A stretch of 32,383 nt of DNA from Acidimicrobiaceae bacterium (GTDB taxonomy: Bacteria > Actinomycetota > Acidimicrobiia > Acidimicrobiales > RAAP-2): positions 32,515-64,897 of the forward strand of contig PLHD01000037.1 in assembly GCA_003138815.1 (NCBI GenBank). Reading direction: 5' to 3'. Numbering within the stretch: position 1 is the first letter of the stretch; every line of letters begins with the position of its first letter. Below are positions 25,560 to 32,383 of the stretch, piece after piece. The translations under genes were made by a program, and so were the position numbers. A model generated the notes under the pieces. It made no database searches. It was not told the DNA's origin and was given only the letters and a program-made list of their open reading frames with translations.

Positions 25560-26075
25560 GTGGACGATTTCCACCAACTACGCAGATCCCTTCACGACGG
25601 GCCCTTCCCGCGTGATCTGGGGCCCTCTGAGGTCAGTGCCCGACGAGCACTGGCCCGCTGCCGCATCACCATGCAGGCCTCCACTACGGCGAGCGTCGCA
25701 CAGAATGCAATGAACAAGGGCGACGTGCTCGCCACGGCGCGCATTGCGGGCATGCAGGCCGCCAAGCAGGCATCGTCGTTGCTGCCGATGTCGCACCCGG
25801 TGCTCGTGGGCAACGTCTACGTGAACTTCACGATCGCCGACACCCATATCGACGTCGAGGCCAGCGTCGACACGGTTGACCGCACCGGCGTCGAGATGGA
25901 GGCGCTCACGGCGGTCACCGTGGCGGCGCTGACGATCTACGACATGTGCAAGTCCGCCGACCGCACGATGACGATCGAAGCGGTGGCCCTGTGGGAGAAG
26001 GCAGGGGGGCGCTCGGGGACCTGGCGCCGTGAGGAAGCCCTCGGCGCCGACGGCGGCGAAACAGCCCCTCGCTAG
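25560..26075 (+). CDS. moaC: MoaC-like protein (cyclic pyranopterin monophosphate synthase family), divergent
   Basis: A 171-residue MoaC-family protein. The core is clear: NKGDVLATARIAGMQAAKQ, a histidine in LPMSHPVL, the acidic active-site motif DRTGVEMEALTAV, ALTIYDMCKSADR and EKAGGRSGTW. MoaC converts the GTP-derived cyclised intermediate to cyclic pyranopterin monophosphate in molybdenum cofactor synthesis. Two things are off. The usual LCHP is MSHP (Cys to Ser), and the conserved N-terminal MVDVSxK stretch with its lysine (K21 in E. coli) is not present; its place is taken by DLGPSEVSARRALAR. It may be a working variant or a paralogue with another role. No other molybdenum cofactor gene adjoins it. 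Confidence 0.82.
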   Translation: MDDFHQLRRSLHDGPFPRDLGPSEVSARRALARCRITMQASTTASVAQNAMNKGDVLATARIAGMQAAKQASSLLPMSHPVLVGNVYVNFTIADTHIDVEASVDTVDRTGVEMEALTAVTVAALTIYDMCKSADRTMTIEAVALWEKAGGRSGTWRREEALGADGGETAPR

Positions 26076-26102
26076 CCGCGCGCCGGGTCCGCGCCGCGCC
26101 GG

Positions 26103-26108
26103 TACTCT
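26103..26108 (+). promoter_or_regulatory. -10 element of pafBC
   Basis: TACTCT about 25 nt before ATG 26134; a short leader with GGGAG (26125-26129) follows. Confidence 0.35.
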
Positions 26109-26133
26109 CGGGTGTAACGATGACGGGAGTCTG

Positions 26134-28071
26134 ATGGGCGCTTCACGAGGTGGGAATGATCAGAGCCGAGAGCGCCTCGTCGCGCTCGTGCTGCTGCTCC
26201 AGAGCGCGCCGAAGTCCGAGCCGCTCAGCCAGGAGGTCATCGTCCGCGAACTGATGGTCGACGAGTACCCCGTGTCGGCCAAGGGGCCGCGTAAGGTGCG
26301 TGCCTACGAAGGCAACGAGGCCGCCATTCGCCAGAAGTTCGAACGGGACAAGGCCCGCATCCGCGACCTGGGATTCCATATCGACACCGTGACCATCGGC
26401 GACACCGTCGGCTACCGGATCGACCCCGCCAGCGGTTACGCGCCGCCCATCAACTTCTCCGATGCCGAGGAGAGGGTCGTCCAGATGGCCTTGCGCTTCT
26501 GCGGGTTCGGAAAGTCGGGGGCCTTCAGCGTCTTCAACGAGGGACCGGCCAGCGATGGCGGGGTCAAGTTCACGAACGACTACACGCCCATGCTGCGCGC
26601 CCTCCATCAGCGCCGGGCCCTCAGGTTCGACTACCACTCGTCGGCGAACAGGGCGCGCGCCGTGGAGCCGCTCGTGATCGACTTCTTCGGCGACGCCACC
26701 TACCTGGTCGCGCGCGTCAAGGGGACCGACGAGATCAAGGGCTACCGCGTCGACCGCATCACGTCGATGCCGGTGGTGCTGAACGACACGTTCCAGGTCG
26801 ACGAGGCCACCGCGCAGCTGGCCAAGGCCTGGCGTCCCGCGTTCTCCAAGGGACCCGCGCCGGTGGACGTCGTCTTCACCACCAACCAGAACTACGCGAC
26901 GCTCCTGCTGAGCCAGTTCCCCGACGCCGTCGCGGCGAGCAAGAAGGGCGGCAAGGTCGAGGTCAGCATCAGCTTCGACAACCTGAACGCCGCGAGGGAC
27001 TTCATCCTGGAGGCGGCCGAGCGGGTTCGCTTGCAGTGGCCCAAGGCGCTGAGGACCGAACTCGTCGATTGGCTCGGTCGCGTGAACCGCGGCAAGGTGC
27101 CGGCGCTGGAGAGCCTCAAGTTCGCGGGAACGTCGACCAACGACGTGCTCGGCCAGACCCTTCAGCTGCTGCACGCGGTCTACGTGGCCCCCGACGGCTT
27201 GCGGATCAGCGACCTCGCGAGACGCTTCGAGCTCGACCGCGATCAGGTGCGTTACATCATGGACCGTCTCGTGTCCTTCGAGCCGATGGGCGGCCACTAC
27301 GGATTCCCCGCGCACGTGGTCAAGGAGTGCGACGACTGGGACAACGAGGAGTCCGACGACTCGACCTACTTCGCGAGCTTCTCCGACGCCCACGGATCGA
27401 CCAGCCCGTCGCCCTTGCTGTGGCGCGACCTGTTCGAGCTGAACATCGCCCTGCGCGAAGCGTCGAGGGTCTACTCGGACCCCGCGGTCCAGTCGGCCAT
27501 CGACAAGATCGAGGCCGCCGCCGCCGCGTTCGTGCAGGTCGAGTCGCCGTCGAATGAGCCGTTCATTGGCCACGTGCAGTCCGCGGTGGCCGAGCACGCC
27601 CAGATCAAGATTGCGTACACCCCCGGGACGGCCCAGGAGGCCAGTATCCGGTTGATAGAACCCCGCGAGATGAAGGCTCTCAACGGCCACACGTACGCGC
27701 GCGCCTACTGCACGACGAGGCAGGCCTGGCGGACGTTCCGCGTCGACCGCATCAGCGCCATCCTCGCCAAGTCGCCGGTGACCGAGGAGCGTGCGCCCGA
27801 TGGCGCCACGAACTGGCTGACCCAGGTGGGCGACGAGGGCGTCGAGGTCGTCGTCGTCATGGAGGCCCCACTGCGCTGGCTCTTCGAGCCGCTGCCCGGC
27901 GCACAGTGGCTGGCCCTCGAGGACGGCCGCCACGCCGTCAAGTTCCGCGTCGGCGACGAGTCGTTCCTCGACCACCTGATGCTGCGCGCCGGCGGCGGCG
28001 CGGTGGTGGCGTCACCCCAGTACGCCAAGGCCGGTCACGAGCTCGCGGCGCGGATCGCGGAGTGGCTGTAG
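26134..28071 (+). CDS. pafBC: Fused PafB-PafC transcriptional activator (WYL domains)
   Basis: A 645-residue protein made of two similar halves, each with a winged helix-turn-helix, a WYL domain and a WCX extension. The first HTH is at residues 10-85 (RERLVALVLLLQS ... FERDKARIRDLGFHIDT). The first WYL region is near residue 170 (ALHQRRALRFDYHSS, KGYRVDRITSM). The second HTH is near residue 345 (LGQTLQLLHAVYVAPDGLRISDLARRF), and the second WYL near residue 500 (VAEHAQIKIAYTPG, RTFRVDRISAI). PafBC activates DNA-damage genes in actinobacteria when its WYL domains bind single-stranded DNA. In mycobacteria pafB and pafC are separate genes beside pafA; here they are fused and no Pup-proteasome gene is near. 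A relaxase gene follows after 33 nt on the same strand. Confidence 0.88.
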   Translation: MGASRGGNDQSRERLVALVLLLQSAPKSEPLSQEVIVRELMVDEYPVSAKGPRKVRAYEGNEAAIRQKFERDKARIRDLGFHIDTVTIGDTVGYRIDPASGYAPPINFSDAEERVVQMALRFCGFGKSGAFSVFNEGPASDGGVKFTNDYTPMLRALHQRRALRFDYHSSANRARAVEPLVIDFFGDATYLVARVKGTDEIKGYRVDRITSMPVVLNDTFQVDEATAQLAKAWRPAFSKGPAPVDVVFTTNQNYATLLLSQFPDAVAASKKGGKVEVSISFDNLNAARDFILEAAERVRLQWPKALRTELVDWLGRVNRGKVPALESLKFAGTSTNDVLGQTLQLLHAVYVAPDGLRISDLARRFELDRDQVRYIMDRLVSFEPMGGHYGFPAHVVKECDDWDNEESDDSTYFASFSDAHGSTSPSPLLWRDLFELNIALREASRVYSDPAVQSAIDKIEAAAAAFVQVESPSNEPFIGHVQSAVAEHAQIKIAYTPGTAQEASIRLIEPREMKALNGHTYARAYCTTRQAWRTFRVDRISAILAKSPVTEERAPDGATNWLTQVGDEGVEVVVVMEAPLRWLFEPLPGAQWLALEDGRHAVKFRVGDESFLDHLMLRAGGGAVVASPQYAKAGHELAARIAEWL

Positions 28072-28104: not shown

Positions 28105-29181
28105 TTGCTTCGACTTTTCGTGCGGCGTTCGAACGACGTCAACTACTTCACCGATGATCCGGCCCACGAGCTCGACGGGTTGCGCGAGGGCGGTCCCGGA
28201 TGGTGGATGCGGGGATCGGGCGACACCCGGGGCCCCGACGACGTGCGGGGCGTCTTTGGAACGACCGAGCGTTCCGCGGTGCAGGGCTACGACATCGTGG
28301 TCGCCGCCCCCCGCCCCGTCTCGATCCTGATCGCCCTGGACCCCGAGCACGCCGCGGGCGTGGTCGGCGCACACCGTGCTTCGGTCGCGGCGACGATCGG
28401 CTACCTCGAGGAGAGGGCGCTGGTCGTGCGGGACCGTCGAGGGGGCGAGGACCGCGACGAGCCGGCGCGGTGGCGCGCCATCGTCAGCTACACGCACGGA
28501 CTCAATCGTCACGGCGAGCCGCACCTCCACGACCACGTGCTAGTGGGCGCGCGACCCGACGGCGCGCGCGGCGTGCTCGACGGCCGGGCTCTCTTCGCCC
28601 ACGTTCGCGCCGCCGACGCCCTGTACCGCTCGTCGTTGCGCCACGAGATCGCCCAACGAACGCCCTGGACGGCGTGGCGATCGTTCCAGGGAATCGAGCA
28701 CGTCCAAGGTCTGGACGAGGGGCTGCGGGCGCTGTGGGGTGGGCATCACCAGGGTCGCGGCGAGAAGCTGGCGTGGCATCGCGACGACACGGTCCGCCAG
28801 TGGCGGCGCGACCTGGAGCGCTTCGAGTCCCAGGGCACGGTCGCCCCGCCCCGGGGGGACCGGGGAAGGCTCGACGAGCACTCGTTCGCGGGCGCCCTGG
28901 AAGGGCGCGCCGACGTAGCCCGCCGCCACGTCGTGGCGGCGTGGGCCAACGCCGCGAGATACGGCCAGGCTGCGAAGGATACCGCCCGCGCGATCGATCA
29001 GCTGTACCCCACGCTGGCCGAGTCCAGGGGGGTCCGTGAGGCGACGATCGGCCTGACCCAGGCTCGGATGATCGGCGTCGTTCGCGAGCGCGGCCCGCGC
29101 CCGCTGGCGGTGAGCGAACTGGCTGGTTGGGCTCAGCGCCCGCGCGAACGCTCGGGCTCGTGGATGGACCGCTCGAGGTAG
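28105..29181 (+). CDS. MobF/TrwC-type relaxase domain protein, no helicase domain
   Basis: A 358-residue protein that matches the N-terminal relaxase domain of TrwC/TraI. Tyr14 in NDVNYFTDDP is the candidate DNA-nicking tyrosine. GYDIVVAAPRPVSILIALDP matches the family's LTFSAPKSVS strand. The metal-binding three-histidine motif is His140, His142 and His144 in HGEPHLHDHVLVG, and AADALYRSSLRHEIAQ follows. Family relaxases nick one strand at oriT and stay covalently attached for conjugative transfer. Normal MobF proteins continue into a helicase and reach 900 residues or more; this one stops after the relaxase domain and a short arginine-rich tail. TTG 28105 is chosen for the GGAGG 6 nt upstream. 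Its last 49 bp overlap the end of the convergent coupling-protein gene. GC content equals the neighbours, so recent arrival is unlikely. Confidence 0.8.
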   Translation: MLRLFVRRSNDVNYFTDDPAHELDGLREGGPGWWMRGSGDTRGPDDVRGVFGTTERSAVQGYDIVVAAPRPVSILIALDPEHAAGVVGAHRASVAATIGYLEERALVVRDRRGGEDRDEPARWRAIVSYTHGLNRHGEPHLHDHVLVGARPDGARGVLDGRALFAHVRAADALYRSSLRHEIAQRTPWTAWRSFQGIEHVQGLDEGLRALWGGHHQGRGEKLAWHRDDTVRQWRRDLERFESQGTVAPPRGDRGRLDEHSFAGALEGRADVARRHVVAAWANAARYGQAAKDTARAIDQLYPTLAESRGVREATIGLTQARMIGVVRERGPRPLAVSELAGWAQRPRERSGSWMDRSR

Positions 29182-30440
29182 TGGCGGAAGCGTTCGTCGC
29201 GGTAGGCGGGGGTGAGCCCGATCCACTTCATTTCCTTGTTCGAGTCGAGACCGAGCCCGAATCCTGGACGGCCGCGGGCGATCTCGCTCAGAGTGGCCCG
29301 GTCCCGTTCCATCCAGCCGGTGGAGTATCCCTGCGCTCGGCCGCGCCGTCCGATCTGGTGGGTCGACGTGGCCACCTGCGTGCGCCCCGCGAGGTGCGCC
29401 AGCAGTTCGAGCGTGGGCCGGTCGGCGATGCCCGGCAGGATGATGGCGGTGGGGAAGAGCGAAAGGAATCCGTCGCCCGTCTGGCCCCAGCGACTTCGGG
29501 CTTGACTGAGGTCCTGCAGGCAGGCCAGCGTCAGGACCCCCTGGCCGCCGCCTTCGGACACGATGCCCGCCAGTCGAGGCAGGGGAGCCACGTTGGCCAG
29601 TTCGTCGAGGGCGAGGAGCAGCCGGGCACCCTCTTCGTGGCGGTCGTAGGTCGCGTGGACCAGCTCCTCGATGAGGCCCACGACCAAGGGGGTCGTCACC
29701 GCCTGGTGACGGCTGGGCGCGACGATGTGGAGCTGGTGGGGTCCGGCGAGGAAGGCGTCGATATCGAGCGGGGCTTCGCGGGCGCTGGCGCGAGCGGCGT
29801 CGGTTCGCACGCCGGCGAAGAGACCCGATGCGGTCGACCAGATGCTCGAGCGCTCGCGGTCCTCGGTGGCGAGCACGCCTCGAAGGAGCGTGAGCGCCGG
29901 ATGATGATCGCCGTAACGCTCGCGCAACTCGAGCGCGACGTCGTCGCTGCGTCGCTCGTCGACGCGCGACGCCAGTGACCCGAGCGACTCGTTTCGTAGC
30001 GCGGCGGCGTGCAGAAGTGGTCCGACGAGCGCGCTCGCACGCTCCGTCCAATGATCGTCGCCGCGCTCGCTGCGCCCTCGTCTCGCAACGTCGATAAGAC
30101 TTCGGGTGGCCAATACTGCGCCATCCCACGTCAAAGATTGCCGAATCGGCGAGTAACCAATGCGCTGCACGCCCGGCGGAGTGCGCACCGTTCCGGAAGG
30201 ATCGAAGAGAAGTGTCGCGCCATCGTGACGTGCCGATGCCATGAGAGAGACGACATCGTTCTTCGTCGAAGTGACTACGCAAGAACGTTTTGTGATCAGG
30301 AGGTTTGGGATGATCAGCGAAGAGGTCTTTCCACTGCGACTTGGACCCAACACGAGTGTCGATCGCTCTGGTCCACTCGTTGCATCACCACTCGCGCCGC
30401 GTCCCAAATAGATTCCGCGGTCATCGATCACGAATGACAA
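29133..30440 (-). CDS. VirD4/TraG-type coupling ATPase without membrane anchor
   Basis: A 435-residue P-loop ATPase of the type IV coupling protein family. Walker A GPSRSGKT lies at residues 32-39, followed by SLIIPNLLITKRSCVVTSTKNDV. Walker B ends at Asp279-Glu280 in LLLALDELANVAPLPRL, and GGGQGVLTLACLQDLSQARSRWG follows, the TraG/TraD C-terminal recognition-type region. Coupling proteins bring the relaxase-DNA complex to a type IV secretion channel. Canonical members have two N-terminal membrane helices before Walker A; here only about 30 soluble residues precede it, so the protein should be cytosolic. The start is TTG 30440, or GTG 30431. The first ~350 bp are less GC-rich than the rest. 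It faces the relaxase tail to tail. Confidence 0.82.
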   Translation of the reverse strand: MSFVIDDRGIYLGRGASGDATSGPERSTLVLGPSRSGKTSSLIIPNLLITKRSCVVTSTKNDVVSLMASARHDGATLLFDPSGTVRTPPGVQRIGYSPIRQSLTWDGAVLATRSLIDVARRGRSERGDDHWTERASALVGPLLHAAALRNESLGSLASRVDERRSDDVALELRERYGDHHPALTLLRGVLATEDRERSSIWSTASGLFAGVRTDAARASAREAPLDIDAFLAGPHQLHIVAPSRHQAVTTPLVVGLIEELVHATYDRHEEGARLLLALDELANVAPLPRLAGIVSEGGGQGVLTLACLQDLSQARSRWGQTGDGFLSLFPTAIILPGIADRPTLELLAHLAGRTQVATSTHQIGRRGRAQGYSTGWMERDRATLSEIARGRPGFGLGLDSNKEMKWIGLTPAYRDERFRHYLERSIHEPERSRGR

Positions 30441-30524
30441 ATGTCGTAAAAAAACTCGAAATGCTTGACATTGGCCTCTAAAGCGAGTGAACTTTTGTTT
30501 GTCCTTCTGCGGAGGAGGTCAACG

Positions 30525-30549
30525 TTTTGCAAAAGTGCTGCTAGCAGCA
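30525..30549. promoter_or_regulatory. Two adjacent perfect palindromes
   Basis: TTTTGCAAAA (30525-30534) is followed after one base by TGCTGCTAGCAGCA (30536-30549); both are perfectly self-complementary. Adjacent palindromes in a divergent intergenic region suggest operator or relaxase/accessory-protein sites. No known consensus is recognised. Confidence 0.4.
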
Positions 30550-30669
30550 TCTGAGTGAAGTGCTCTTTCGCGTTTGGACCGTGCACTGCGTTTGGTCGCC
30601 GCACAGCCGTGAGGCTGGGTGGTCCACGAACGAGTTCACGTTTTTTCAATGCGGTACCAGATTCGCGGT

Positions 30670-30682
30670 CACCACGGTGGTG
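30670..30682. promoter_or_regulatory. Short palindrome upstream of the lysine-rich protein gene
   Basis: CACCAC-G-GTGGTG, a 13-bp palindrome with one central base, about 48 bp before the GTG start at 30730. Possible operator. Confidence 0.3.
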
Positions 30683-30729
30683 TCCTCGGGGTCCCAAATT
30701 GATTCAATGATGATTCCCAAGGAGGGAAA

Positions 30730-31047
30730 GTGGCAACAGCTGCGAAGAAGAAGGCTCCGGCCAAGAAGGCCCCCGCCAAGAAGGTCGCTGCGAAGCGTCC
30801 TGCGAAGAAGGCCGCTGCTAAGAAGGTAGTCAAGAAGGCTCCGGCCAAGAAGGCCGTCGCCAAGAAGGCTCCGGCACGGAAGGCTCCGGCCAAGAAGGCC
30901 GTCGCCAAGAAGGCTGCTGCACGGAAGGCTCCGGCCAAGAAGGCTCCGGCACGGAAGGCCGTCGCCAAGAAGGCTCCGGCACGGAAGGCTCCGGCCAAGA
31001 AGGCTCCGGCGAAGAAGGCCGTCAGGCGCGTCGCCAAGCGCAAGTAG
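30730..31047 (+). CDS. Lysine/alanine-repeat, histone H1-like DNA-binding protein
   Basis: A 105-residue protein built almost wholly of Lys, Ala, Pro, Arg and Val in [16 protein letters not shown] and RKAPAKKA repeats, ending VRRVAKRK. It resembles the C-terminal tails of eukaryotic histone H1, of mycobacterial HupB and of AlgP-type proteins, but has no folded HU domain. It should bind DNA or RNA non-specifically by charge, probably in the nucleoid; this is inference from composition. GTG 30730 is preceded by a near-ideal AAGGAGG (30719-30725), suggesting strong translation. A strong hairpin terminator follows. The DNA is itself repetitive (units like AAGGCTCCGGCCAAG), so copy number may vary between strains. 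Confidence 0.8.
30750..31020. repeat. Tandem imperfect repeats encoding KKAPAKKA-type units
   Basis: Units built from AAGAAGGC, GCTCCGGCC, GCCGTCGCC and GCACGG alternate throughout the gene, mostly in multiples of 9 to 18 bp that preserve the frame. Several stretches are identical over 15 bases or more. Confidence 0.8.
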
Positions 31048-31068: not shown

Positions 31069-31102
31069 GCATTTGAGGGGGCCTTCGGGTCCCCTCAAAT
31101 GC
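31069..31102. terminator. Shared bidirectional hairpin terminator
   Basis: GCATTTGAGGGGGCC (31069-31083) and GGTCCCCTCAAATGC (31088-31102) form a 15-bp stem (one G-U pair) closed by a stable UUCG tetraloop. It lies after the lysine-rich gene and includes the last codons and stop (31095-31097) of cofC from the other side, so it can serve both transcripts. A smaller CCCC-TTTC-GGGG stem (31052-31063) precedes it. There is no long U-tract. Confidence 0.75.
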
Positions 31103-31655
31103 TGTCCGGGTGCTGTTTCAGGTCGCTTGGGTCATCCACGTCGAAGCGCCACGGGCTGTCGTCGATGACCCTCCAGAGAACGCCGAGGCGCTCAGCCTCG
31201 GCCTGGTGCAGCCGCATCGAATCGGGTCCGTAGGCGAAGTGGAAGTCCAGACCCGTTGGCACCACGAGGACGTTCGTGCCCGCGCGGTGGCGGTCGGCGA
31301 TGATCGTGATGCCTGGTCCGGGCTGGAACTGGCCGAGTCCCTCGGGGCTGGCGAGGTCGCCGTGGACGATGAGCAGCCGGTCGAACCTGTCGCGCAGGGC
31401 CGCGTAGGCGCCCTGAACCGCCTCATTGAGGCTTCGAGCTTGCGAGCGCCAGGCTTCGGCCCCGTGGGCCACGGCGAATTGGGAGATCTCGTCGCTTTCG
31501 CTGAGTACGACGACGTGACGTGGCCTGCAGCTGCGCAGCACGCCGAGGGCGAGGTCCTCGGCGAGTTGGGTGACGTCGACCGCGCCAGCCTGACGTAGCC
31601 GGTCCTTGGCCACGTCGAAGCGCTTGAGTGGCATCACAATGGCGTCGCGGGTCAT
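31095..31655 (-). CDS. cofC: 2-phospho-L-lactate (or phosphoenolpyruvate) guanylyltransferase of F420 synthesis
   Basis: A 186-residue nucleotidyltransferase of the CofC/FbiD family. It has the N-terminal VMPLKRFDVAKDRLR with the triphosphate-binding lysine, a VVVLSES strand, LLIVHGDLASP in place of the usual DLP motif, and the family hallmark AGTNVLVVPTGLDFHFAYGPDSMRLHQAEA. It activates a phosphorylated three-carbon acid with GTP for coupling to the deazaflavin Fo, so the organism probably makes coenzyme F420. ATG 31655 is set by a TAGCAT hexamer 8 nt upstream. Other F420 genes are not in the window. It diverges from rnhB across 42 bp. Confidence 0.88.
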   Translation of the reverse strand: MTRDAIVMPLKRFDVAKDRLRQAGAVDVTQLAEDLALGVLRSCRPRHVVVLSESDEISQFAVAHGAEAWRSQARSLNEAVQGAYAALRDRFDRLLIVHGDLASPEGLGQFQPGPGITIIADRHRAGTNVLVVPTGLDFHFAYGPDSMRLHQAEAERLGVLWRVIDDSPWRFDVDDPSDLKQHPDSI

Positions 31656-31663
31656 GGATGTGA

Positions 31664-31669
31664 ATGCTA
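31664..31669 (-). promoter_or_regulatory. -10 element of cofC (probable leaderless transcript)
   Basis: TAGCAT on the minus strand, 8 nt before ATG 31655. Confidence 0.5.
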
Positions 31670-31684
31670 GGGGCCGTCGTTGGT

Positions 31685-31690
31685 TACCCT
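31685..31690 (+). promoter_or_regulatory. -10 element of rnhB (probable leaderless transcript)
   Basis: TACCCT, 7 nt before GTG 31698. Confidence 0.45.
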
Positions 31691-31697
31691 GTTCAGC

Positions 31698-32383
31698 GTG
31701 GCCCACTCCGAGCTTGACTTTCTCCACTACGAGCGGCCGCTGCTGGCGCGCGGCGAAGTAGTGGTGGGCATCGATGAGGTGGGACGCGGAGCGCTCGCCG
31801 GTCCCTTGACGGTCGGAGCCGTCGTCCTCACCTGCGGGGCCGCGGCGCCCCAAGGGCTCGCCGACTCCAAGCTACTCACGTCCGCACGTCGCGAAGCGCT
31901 GGTGGAGCCGTTGGAGGGCTGGGCCGCCGACTGGTCGCTTGGATCGGTCACTTCGGCAGAAATCGACGAATGGGGACTGCGCTTGGCGCTGGCGGTGGCG
32001 GGAACCCGGGCCCTTGATGGGCTGCGGGTGAGGCCGACACATGCGCTCATCGACGGTTCGTTCAACCTCTTGAGAGCACCGCTGGATACCGGATTCGGTG
32101 TCCAGGCGCCTCCGCGGCTCCGCTACTCGAGCCTGCCCTCTACGACCATCGTCAAGGGCGACCAAGTGAGCGCGACAATCGCCGCCGCCTCGGTGTTAGC
32201 CAAGGTCCATCGTGACCGGTTCATGGTGGAACTCTCAGGGGAGTTTTCGGCTTACTGCTGGGCCGCGAACAAGGGCTATGGAGCCCCTGAGCACCTGGAA
32301 GCGTTGCGTCGCCGCGGCCCTACGTCCTTTCATCGTCAGAGTTGGCGTCTACCCGTTCAAGTGGACTCGTCAGAGTTGGCGTA
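31698..32383 (+). CDS. rnhB: Ribonuclease HII (reaches the right edge)
   Basis: 228 codons plus two bases are visible. The enzyme cleaves the RNA strand of RNA-DNA hybrids and single ribonucleotides in DNA. Catalytic Asp26 and Glu27 are in GIDEVGRGALAGP, followed by DSKLL, an aspartate in ALIDGSFNLL, and the last aspartate region in IVKGDQVSATIAAASVLAKVHRDRF. NKGYGAPEHLEALRRRGPTSFHR is the typical end of the domain. After SFHRQSW a tail of about 14 residues leads to the edge, where the last two bases TA could begin a stop codon. GTG 31698 fits the TACCCT hexamer. The tail is encoded partly by a duplicated segment. Confidence 0.95.
   Translation, partial: MAHSELDFLHYERPLLARGEVVVGIDEVGRGALAGPLTVGAVVLTCGAAAPQGLADSKLLTSARREALVEPLEGWAADWSLGSVTSAEIDEWGLRLALAVAGTRALDGLRVRPTHALIDGSFNLLRAPLDTGFGVQAPPRLRYSSLPSTTIVKGDQVSATIAAASVLAKVHRDRFMVELSGEFSAYCWAANKGYGAPEHLEALRRRGPTSFHRQSWRLPVQVDSSELA
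32333..32382. repeat. 16-bp direct repeat, 34-bp period, at the rnhB 3' end
   Basis: TCGTCAGAGTTGGCGT occurs at 32333-32348 and again at 32367-32382, with 18 bp between. The 34-bp period is not a multiple of three, so the copies are read in different frames. The window ends one base after the second copy. Confidence 0.85.

Follow-up and report, generated by a model that had tools for sequence, protein, structure and literature searches.

A helicase-less relaxase and a coupling ATPase as the possible DNA-processing half of an inherited conjugation machine in an actinobacterial order

Relaxase and coupling ATPase

The DNA studied here is a stretch of 32,383 nucleotides (nt), hereafter the window, from the genome of an Acidimicrobiaceae bacterium (assembly GCA_003138815.1, contig PLHD01000037.1, positions 32,515 to 64,897). 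It is a housekeeping stretch, in which Pfam finds SecA, a peptide release factor (PCRF/RF-1), an ABC transporter, MoaC, CofC, RNase HII and a WYL regulator, and near its end a gene for a relaxase converges on one for a coupling ATPase (Table 1), the pair occupying C10:60619-62954 of a 144,876-base contig of the host's genome. The GC content is 0.70-0.72 across most of both genes and falls to 0.585 around the ATPase start. An initial annotation, made from the letters alone, had described an orphan conjugation pair, a helicase-less MobF relaxase facing a VirD4-like ATPase. The two enzymes are borne out, as MobF- and VirD4-type proteins, by domain, motif and fold evidence, but 'orphan' does not hold: VirB2-, VirB6-, VirB4- and second VirD4-like genes lie at a conserved locus of the same genome, and the two loci co-occur across the order. 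Its statement that no type IV secretion system (T4SS) gene is present is right for the window, where none was recognised; such genes do occur in the rest of the genome, in which it had proposed to look.

Table 1. Positions of the relaxase and ATPase genes and of the features around them, counted from the first letter of the window
Feature	Positions	Strand	Evidence and remarks
Fused PafB-PafC-like WYL regulator	26029..28071	+	Pfam WYL, WCX; 33 nt upstream of the relaxase start
CGACCGTTG motif, then a hairpin of variable sequence, its 3' arm with a Shine-Dalgarno (SD)-like GGAGGT, directly before the relaxase start codon	28074..28107	+	Conservation of motif and stem
MobF/TrwC-type HUH relaxase without helicase domain, 358 amino acids (aa)	28105..29181	+	Pfam TrwC, invariant residues, structure match
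Convergent overlap of the relaxase and ATPase 3' ends, 49 nt	29133..29181	.	Coordinates of the open reading frames (ORFs); relatives have the two genes side by side and converging
VirD4/TrwB-type coupling ATPase of 435 aa, lacking an N-terminal membrane segment	29133..30440	-	Pfam, Walker motifs, TrwB fold
Putative structured leader RNA, TTGACA box at the 5' end, SD of the Lys-rich gene at the 3' end	30464..30725	+	RNAalifold
Lys/Ala-rich histone H1-like (HC2) protein, neighbour	30730..31047	+	Pfam HC2, 42.3 bits over 40
cofC, conserved downstream neighbour	31098..31853	-	Pfam CofC, 43 bits over 22
rnhB, runs off the window, conserved downstream neighbour	31680..32381	+	Pfam RNase_HII, 115 bits

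The relaxase begins with TTG at a column that holds ATG or GTG in most relatives. The profile search proposed with the initial annotation gave a significant match to Pfam TrwC (88.5 bits, cut-off 25); NCBIfam MobF scores 79.3 bits, below its cut-off of 100, and the protein is therefore classed as MobF-type, not as canonical MobF. Its AlphaFold model (predicted local distance difference test, pLDDT, 88.7) matches TrwC (PDB 1zm5) with Z 20.5 and a root-mean-square deviation (rmsd) of 3.4 over 234 aligned residues. In an alignment of the window with 42 of 49 loci (A1, 43 rows; the incomplete L044, L047, L048 and L049 are left out, as are L006, L016 and L027), Y14, H131, H142 and H144 are invariant in 43/43 rows. 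Tyr14 had thus been picked out correctly. Of the histidine triad first proposed (140/142/144), the last two members stand; H140 is likewise invariant, but the third member is H131, which together with H142 and H144 aligns to histidines of the TraI proteins of pCU1 and pKM101 (profile alignment), residues that we take to be the metal ligands. Y14 is the sole conserved tyrosine within the first 45 columns; MobF relaxases have two N-terminal catalytic tyrosine positions. Among relaxases of other families of the order (f-numbers are our family labels), Pfam finds a helicase domain (AAA_30) in that of f22 and none in those of f31 (674 aa), f45 (437 aa), f43 (461 aa), f16 (723 aa) and the sister genus g26 (390 aa).

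The ATPase probably starts at the GTG at 30431, a column conserved in relatives. It passes the Pfam cut-offs for T4SS-DNA_transf (72.2 bits over 20.1) and TraG-D_C (54.6 over 22), and its model (pLDDT 80.1) matches TrwB (1e9s) across residues 4-425 (Z 27.1, rmsd 3.5, 373 residues aligned). Both Walker motifs named at the outset are there, Walker A as GPSRSGKT and Walker B as LLLALDE, and they are invariant or nearly so in the 37 rows of an alignment of the window with 36 of the 49 loci (A2). Crude hydropathy revealed no N-terminal membrane anchor in the ATPase, whose ORF begins at the motor domain, and no hydrophobic window of the membrane type in either protein.

Conservation and inheritance

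We compared gene order over 49 named contigs and gene presence over 37 genomes of the host's genus (its own and 36 others); genes outside the window were called by a simple codon-score script, which fails on low-GC genomes, for which tblastn matches only are given. The relaxase is matched in 37/37 genomes, over at least residues 3-323 and with 42-71% identity in the 36 others, and the ATPase equally in 37/37, split between two contigs in three of these genomes. The conservation of the pair with its pafBC, cofC and rnhB flanks, which the initial annotation had raised as a question, is borne out: pafBC lies upstream of the relaxase in 49/49 contigs, 46 have the ATPase next to the relaxase and converging on it (contigs L044, L047 and L049 end inside the relaxase), cofC was found in 34/49 (the remainder end earlier or gave no match) and rnhB in 33/49. 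The order pafBC, relaxase and facing ATPase recurs in other genera of the host's family (L173-L176), in f31 (L186, where the downstream genes are again cofC and rnhB) and in f21 (L113, L185). In f22 (L111) the relaxase, here of 1063 aa, does not follow pafBC and is convergent with the ATPase near cofC, a further ORF separating the two; in f60 (L184) convergent relaxase and ATPase matches share one contig with cofC; and in f45, f39, f43 and f9 the relaxase follows pafBC without a neighbouring ATPase match.

The ratio of nonsynonymous to synonymous substitution rates (dN/dS), proposed as a check on decay, is low. In the six closest listed pairs, quoted because wider pairs are near saturation, the relaxase has 0.10-0.16 and the ATPase 0.05-0.10, next to 0.03-0.26 (dxs) and 0.04-0.13 (pafBC); when every pair with dS 0.15-1.5 is taken, the medians are 0.27 (relaxase), 0.14 (ATPase), 0.25 (pafBC), 0.28 (rnhB) and 0.13 (dxs). 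Pairwise distances between loci correlate with those of dxs for the relaxase (r 0.79) and the ATPase (r 0.83; 29 loci, permutation maxima below 0.4), as they do for moaC (0.75), rnhB (0.77) and pafBC (0.81), the tests covering 21-34 loci per gene pair. Relaxase and ATPase thus behave like core genes. In a tree of the ATPase, f45 and f21 each form one group and f1 needs 2 changes; in one of VirB4, f1 needs 3 and f45 needs 2.

Pfam, run on 18 of the window's proteins, recognised no integrase, the other window and flanking genes lying outside that search, and pattern scans of viral contigs revealed no relative of relaxase or ATPase. The patchy distribution of an integrative and conjugative element (ICE) was not observed, the pair keeping one address throughout the genus, and relaxase, coupling protein and VirB4 do not form one cluster in the host's genome, where the pair lies on contig C10 and VirB4 on C42. 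Among the matches listed, the best plasmid relatives reach about 36% identity for the ATPase and 33% over about half its length for the relaxase; the annotated products of pRWAY04, the top plasmid match of the ATPase, include no relaxase. A further, weaker MobF match occurs in 7/37 genus genomes.

The channel locus

Contig C42 of the host's genome ends with serS, a two-component pair and the genes labelled B2, B6, B4N and B4C, and contig C73 begins with a second VirD4 gene and one for a ROK-family kinase; judged from relatives, the two contigs appear to adjoin. Locus L117 holds the series in one piece: serS, response regulator and histidine kinase, then genes for a DUF6112 protein (99 aa), a TrbL/VirB6-like protein (370 aa), a 355-aa protein, a VirB4-like protein (394 aa), a VirD4-like protein (384 aa) and the ROK-family kinase. 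(The labels regX3/senX3 and ppgK are working names; Pfam supports a response regulator with a histidine kinase for regX3/senX3 and a ROK-family protein for ppgK.) In L118 the 355- and 394-aa genes are fused into a single 744-aa gene, and in f45 and f31 the first part matches EccE. The VirB4 copy of genome G033, to which that of the host is 75% identical, passes AAA_10 (33.4 bits over 27.5) and falls just under the P-loop_TraG cut-off (25.6, cut-off 25.8). The second VirD4 of G033 passes T4SS-DNA_transf (90.8 bits over 20.1), and the host's copy on C73 is 74% identical to it. The pilin-like subunit of G033 matches DUF6112, a family without assigned function (42.3 bits over 25), and stays under the T4SS_pilin cut-off (21.0, cut-off 26.6); the host's VirB6-like protein shows several hydrophobic windows by crude hydropathy. 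PF19044 matches 28/37 genus genomes (E <= 0.001), about 1 kb from the second VirD4-like gene where both lie on one contig; it was dropped as a basis for counting, passing its cut-off in only 10/61 genomes. PF03135 found no match in the host's genome, a failure of sensitivity, as the clade's own VirB4 profile does match; that profile reports three matches there, of which only the one on C42 is listed.

Among 12 further loci, 8, from families f1, f31, f32, f39, f43 and f45, share the address next to the two-component pair; the kinase gene lies downstream in two of the remaining four (L251 and L260), and L253 (f22) and L257 (f16) have neither feature. L260 (G018:C31) comes from a 1.4-Mb genus genome in which VirB6 and VirB4 are followed directly by the ROK-type kinase; this genome retains the pair's own coupling ATPase. 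The channel genes of f16 have a TrwC-type relaxase (723 and 810 aa) as their immediate neighbour, and the f16 ATPase lies elsewhere (L271). As the relaxase thus accompanies the coupling ATPase in some families and the channel in f16, all three are tied together. Further T4SS-like genes for a small subunit and VirB4, with about 31-37% identity, occur in two genus genomes, at L121/L122 (G033:C17) and L123 (G028:C17), the G033 contig also holding a long MobF frame; these are probably true mobile elements beside the inherited system.

Co-occurrence and ComEC

Profiles of the coupling ATPase (E <= 1e-50) and VirB4 (E <= 1e-15) were run on 397 genomes of the order. The ATPase is matched in 115 and VirB4 in 154; both occur in 110, the ATPase only in 5, VirB4 only in 44 and neither in 238, counts that carry no phylogenetic correction. 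The family lists drawn from this search hold only genomes found in a match list and so give no prevalence per family. In a phylum-wide sample of 396 genomes, order members included, four matches outside the order score 176-200 bits, and those inside at least 262.

ComEC, the channel for natural transformation, was scored with PF03772, which matched 10/14 control genomes, in 61 genomes: the 37 of the genus and an outgroup of 24, one per family. The profile left unmatched 37/37 genus genomes and G044 (f9), G051 (f16), G056 (f21), G057 (f22) and G060 (f25), and matched the other 19/24 of the outgroup. A coupling ortholog (>250 bits) is present in the 37 genus genomes and in exactly G044, G051, G056 and G057 (G038, G041 and G054, with ATPase matches <100 bits, were scored as being without it). 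ComEC is accordingly matched in 0/41 carriers of the ortholog compared with 19/20 non-carriers, or, by family, in 0/5 versus 19/20 (Fisher p 1.1e-4, ignoring shared descent). The genome that lacks matches to both, G060, is 80% complete.

Candidate RNA elements and neighbouring genes

The sequence GACC[GA][TA]TG is present in the window and in 49/49 relatives ahead of a hairpin that follows immediately on the pafBC stop. A stem of at least five uninterrupted pairs can be formed in 45/50 sequences versus 25% of shuffles (L010, L011, L029, L030 and L042 have none), and the mean minimum free energy over the 50 is -12.4 for the sense strand, -8.9 for the antisense strand and -4.8 for shuffled sequences. 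Five of six hairpin pairs show both-sided changes in a hand-chosen 29 of the 50 sequences, a subset that leaves out some irregular hairpins such as those of L011, L018, L022, L025 and L043; realignment of all 50 misplaces the 3' arms, and the per-sequence stem count is used in its stead. As the hairpin is kept while its sequence varies, holds the SD in its 3' arm and comes right after the pafBC stop, relaxase translation would most simply be coupled to that of pafBC. We also considered CGACCGTTG and the hairpin as the nick site of an origin of transfer (oriT) and rejected this: the sense strand folds better than the antisense strand and the SD sits in the 3' arm, and the hairpin is hence read as an mRNA element. 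The 12-mer GCGACCGTTGGG occurs twice in the host's genome, the second time about 45 nt beyond a tRNA-Lys gene and with no hairpin visible by eye after it. Outside the genus the sequence before the relaxase differs, and short hairpins with or near an SD are seen by eye in some cases. Many loci also have a CGACC-type motif immediately before the ATPase start (by eye, without statistics), as if relaxase and ATPase genes shared a translation-level signal. Upstream of relaxases of families f39, f43 and f60, AT-rich inverted repeats were noticed by eye (L181, L182, L183, L184), which are possible oriT or operator sites. A PafBC promoter (consensus tTGTCRgtg-8-TannnT in the extract of PMC5656591) was sought by eye upstream of the ATPase and rejected: the TGTCAAG conserved at that place doubles as the complement of the divergent gene's TTGACA box and so is uninformative on PafBC control.

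That divergent gene encodes the histone-like neighbour, and the roughly 260 nt before it are a candidate for a new structured leader RNA, which is outside the transfer machine proper. RNAalifold predicts 52 pairs, 31 of them with kept both-sided changes, in an alignment (A7) of 35 out of the 42 sequences located (the window and 41 relatives); the stretch has no Rfam match up to E 1. Elsewhere around the locus, L007, L013, L017, L027 and L039 carry about 1.3 to 6.2 kb extra between moaC and pafBC, a junction that is otherwise tight. Five contigs titled Saccharibacteria (L021) or Acidobacteria/Acidobacteriota (L026, L031, L032, L050) have the gene order of the Acidimicrobiales loci and are probably mislabelled metagenome-assembled genomes (MAGs).

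Discussion

Both enzymes and the channel genes can be read directly from these genomes, where they are conserved, behave in the manner of inherited core genes and co-occur, and the pair and the T4SS very probably belong together and are inherited. On balance we favour the view that the pair forms the DNA-processing half of a conjugation machine, encoded on the chromosome and inherited vertically, which would move chromosomal single-stranded DNA (ssDNA) between cells; that chromosomal DNA moving between cells is the substrate seems somewhat the better supposition. In such a machine the relaxase would nick one strand of chromosomal DNA and stay on its 5' end through Y14, a host helicase substituting for the lost relaxase helicase; the soluble coupling ATPase would pass the strand to a minimal, VirB4-driven T4SS channel of the Gram-positive type (VirB2-like pilin, VirB6-like membrane protein, VirB4, second VirD4), with the pilin-like subunit serving contact; and the cell would export its own ssDNA to sister cells. 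The order of nick, tyrosine-bound strand, coupling ATPase and channel is the known chemistry of these families. We infer DNA as the substrate, export as the direction, control by DNA damage and replacement of ComEC. The PafBC damage response would be linked to the relaxase through the position of its gene behind pafBC, and since the PafBC of mycobacteria is triggered by ssDNA (PMC11804915, extract), its linkage to an enzyme that handles ssDNA is suggestive. More tentatively, the lineage may have come to exchange DNA through this system instead of through ComEC-type transformation, a replacement that we put at a little under even chances.

Several observations weigh against this interpretation. 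The evidence is genomic throughout, and the 49 named contigs are MAG or bin records. Pfam finds no helicase domain in the 358-aa relaxase, and a second conserved N-terminal tyrosine was not found in the first 45 alignment columns. No oriT was found, in agreement with the initial annotation, and the sole conserved element before the relaxase behaves as an mRNA hairpin. HTH_PafC is not recognised by Pfam in the PafBC-like protein of the window, though it is in those of some further families. The VirB6-like protein scores 17.6 bits for TrbL, below the cut-off of 25.9; G018 has no second VirD4 beside VirB4, and 6/37 genus genomes give a single ATPase match only. Across the order, 44 genomes have a VirB4 match without the coupling ortholog, part of which ordinary ICEs probably account for, and in f32 the relaxase profile matched G257 only, though ATPase and VirB4 are present in that family. 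The co-occurrence and ComEC counts ignore phylogeny, and ComEC was scored in the 61 genomes only. Neither the ATPase tree nor the VirB4 tree resolves its deep forks or recovers f1 as one clade, for which reason we do not claim strict vertical descent between families. Finally, there are broken copies: the L019 ATPase frame breaks after 277 aa, the L048 relaxase stops after 296 aa, the G328 ATPase is split over two frames and a TAG lies inside the ATPase match of G002, and we cannot tell errors of MAGs or assembly from real decay.

A co-opted T4SS that exports proteins or serves cell contact, with the relaxase kept as substrate or regulator, would suit a relaxase that has no helicase and one conserved tyrosine, and for the chromosomal T4SS of Patescibacteria, which mostly lack a relaxase, a role other than conjugation is proposed (PMC12102498, extract); we nevertheless hold it to be unlikely, given that the HUH residues and Tyr14 are invariant in 43/43 rows under purifying selection and that genomes with the coupling ortholog have no ComEC match. 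Slightly less likely again is that the pair processes ssDNA inside the cell as a unit of the PafBC damage response, acting in repair or replication restart and unrelated to the T4SS: the position of the relaxase next to pafBC in several families and the lack of a membrane-type window in either protein speak for it, but VirB4 occurs in 110/115 genomes with the ATPase, and the TrwC-type relaxase of f16 adjoins channel genes.

The remaining explanations turn on mobile elements. That the pair is kept to mobilise resident plasmids or ICEs in trans could be argued from the additional MobF matches of the genus and from the extra T4SS-like genes of some genomes (G033:C17, G028:C17); such matches are found in 7/37 genomes, however, compared with 37/37 for the pair, and the best listed plasmid relatives are as distant as given above, so that we regard this as improbable. 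As to the choice first offered between the residue of an old integrated element and a domesticated system for DNA processing or transfer, a decaying remnant could explain the missing helicase and the few broken copies, and also the lack of a recognised integrase; it is hard to reconcile with 37/37 genomes, one address, invariant active-site residues, low dN/dS and housekeeping-like divergence, all of which strongly favour domestication, and we give the remnant almost no weight.

Comparison with known systems, for which the papers cited here and below served in extract, places the proposed conjugation machine between several of them. Akin to the archaeal Ced and Ted systems (PMC9905601), of which Ced imports DNA and is UV-inducible, it is encoded on the chromosome and not on a mobile element, has a T4SS-type ATPase, a putative pilus and a possible link to DNA damage, and would move cellular DNA, which is here predicted from genes alone; it differs in its bacterial host, its two VirD4-type ATPases, the proposed export as opposed to the import by Ced, and a relaxase with conserved active site, where the extract describes no recognisable relaxase for the archaeal machinery. 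With the T4SS of Patescibacteria (PMC12102498, PMC12857230) it shares a chromosomal, monoderm-type make-up across a large clade, VirB4 with a VirB2-like pilin, and a coupling protein often far from virB4; there, as far as these extracts go, the relaxase is mostly absent, the function is thought not to be conjugation and comEC is present in the studied strain, whereas here a relaxase is found in every genus genome examined and ComEC is not. The T4SS of the gonococcal genetic island (GGI) of Neisseria gonorrhoeae likewise combines a relaxase with a T4SS and exports chromosomal ssDNA, as is proposed here, but is F-like, sits on a genetic island and serves a naturally competent host, in contrast to components dispersed over housekeeping loci of hosts without a ComEC match (PMC12857230). 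Mycobacterial distributive conjugal transfer and Streptomyces TraB are instances of the chromosomal DNA exchange in actinobacteria that is also proposed here, but they use ESX- or FtsK-like machines instead of a relaxase with VirB4/VirD4 (PMC12857230). The proteins themselves resemble the TrwC/TraI relaxases and TrwB (PDB 1zm5, 1e9s) in fold, HUH histidines and RecA-like motor, and depart from them in having no helicase, one conserved tyrosine and no membrane anchor and in falling under the NCBIfam MobF cut-off. A survey that counted 402 chromosomal relaxases without a neighbouring T4SS read them as possible integrative mobilizable elements (PMC3158045); unlike those, the relaxase described here is inherited, fixed in place and partnered by a T4SS at another locus. 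In the open-licence PMC literature, at the level of titles and abstract starts, we found no report of a relaxase-bearing, dispersed and inherited system across many families of a bacterial order.

Dispersal of this kind can mislead classification by gene clusters, under which a relaxase without nearby VirB4 denotes a mobilizable element and VirB4 without nearby relaxase denotes protein export (PMC3158045); as the parts are scattered among housekeeping genes, ICE finders would file them as a lone relaxase and a relaxase-less T4SS. Bacterial conjugation is described as a property of mobile elements (PMC9905601). It is conceivable, at somewhat less than even odds in our estimate, that many families of one actinobacterial order gave up ComEC-type transformation and inherit a relaxase-bearing, damage-linked conjugation machine, the bacterial counterpart of archaeal Ced. 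If this is true, a relaxase-bearing core T4SS in genomes without ComEC would be conjugation machinery that cells maintain because it serves themselves, and two questions would become testable: whether bacteria evolve dedicated machinery for chromosome exchange among themselves, and whether transformation can give way to conjugation.

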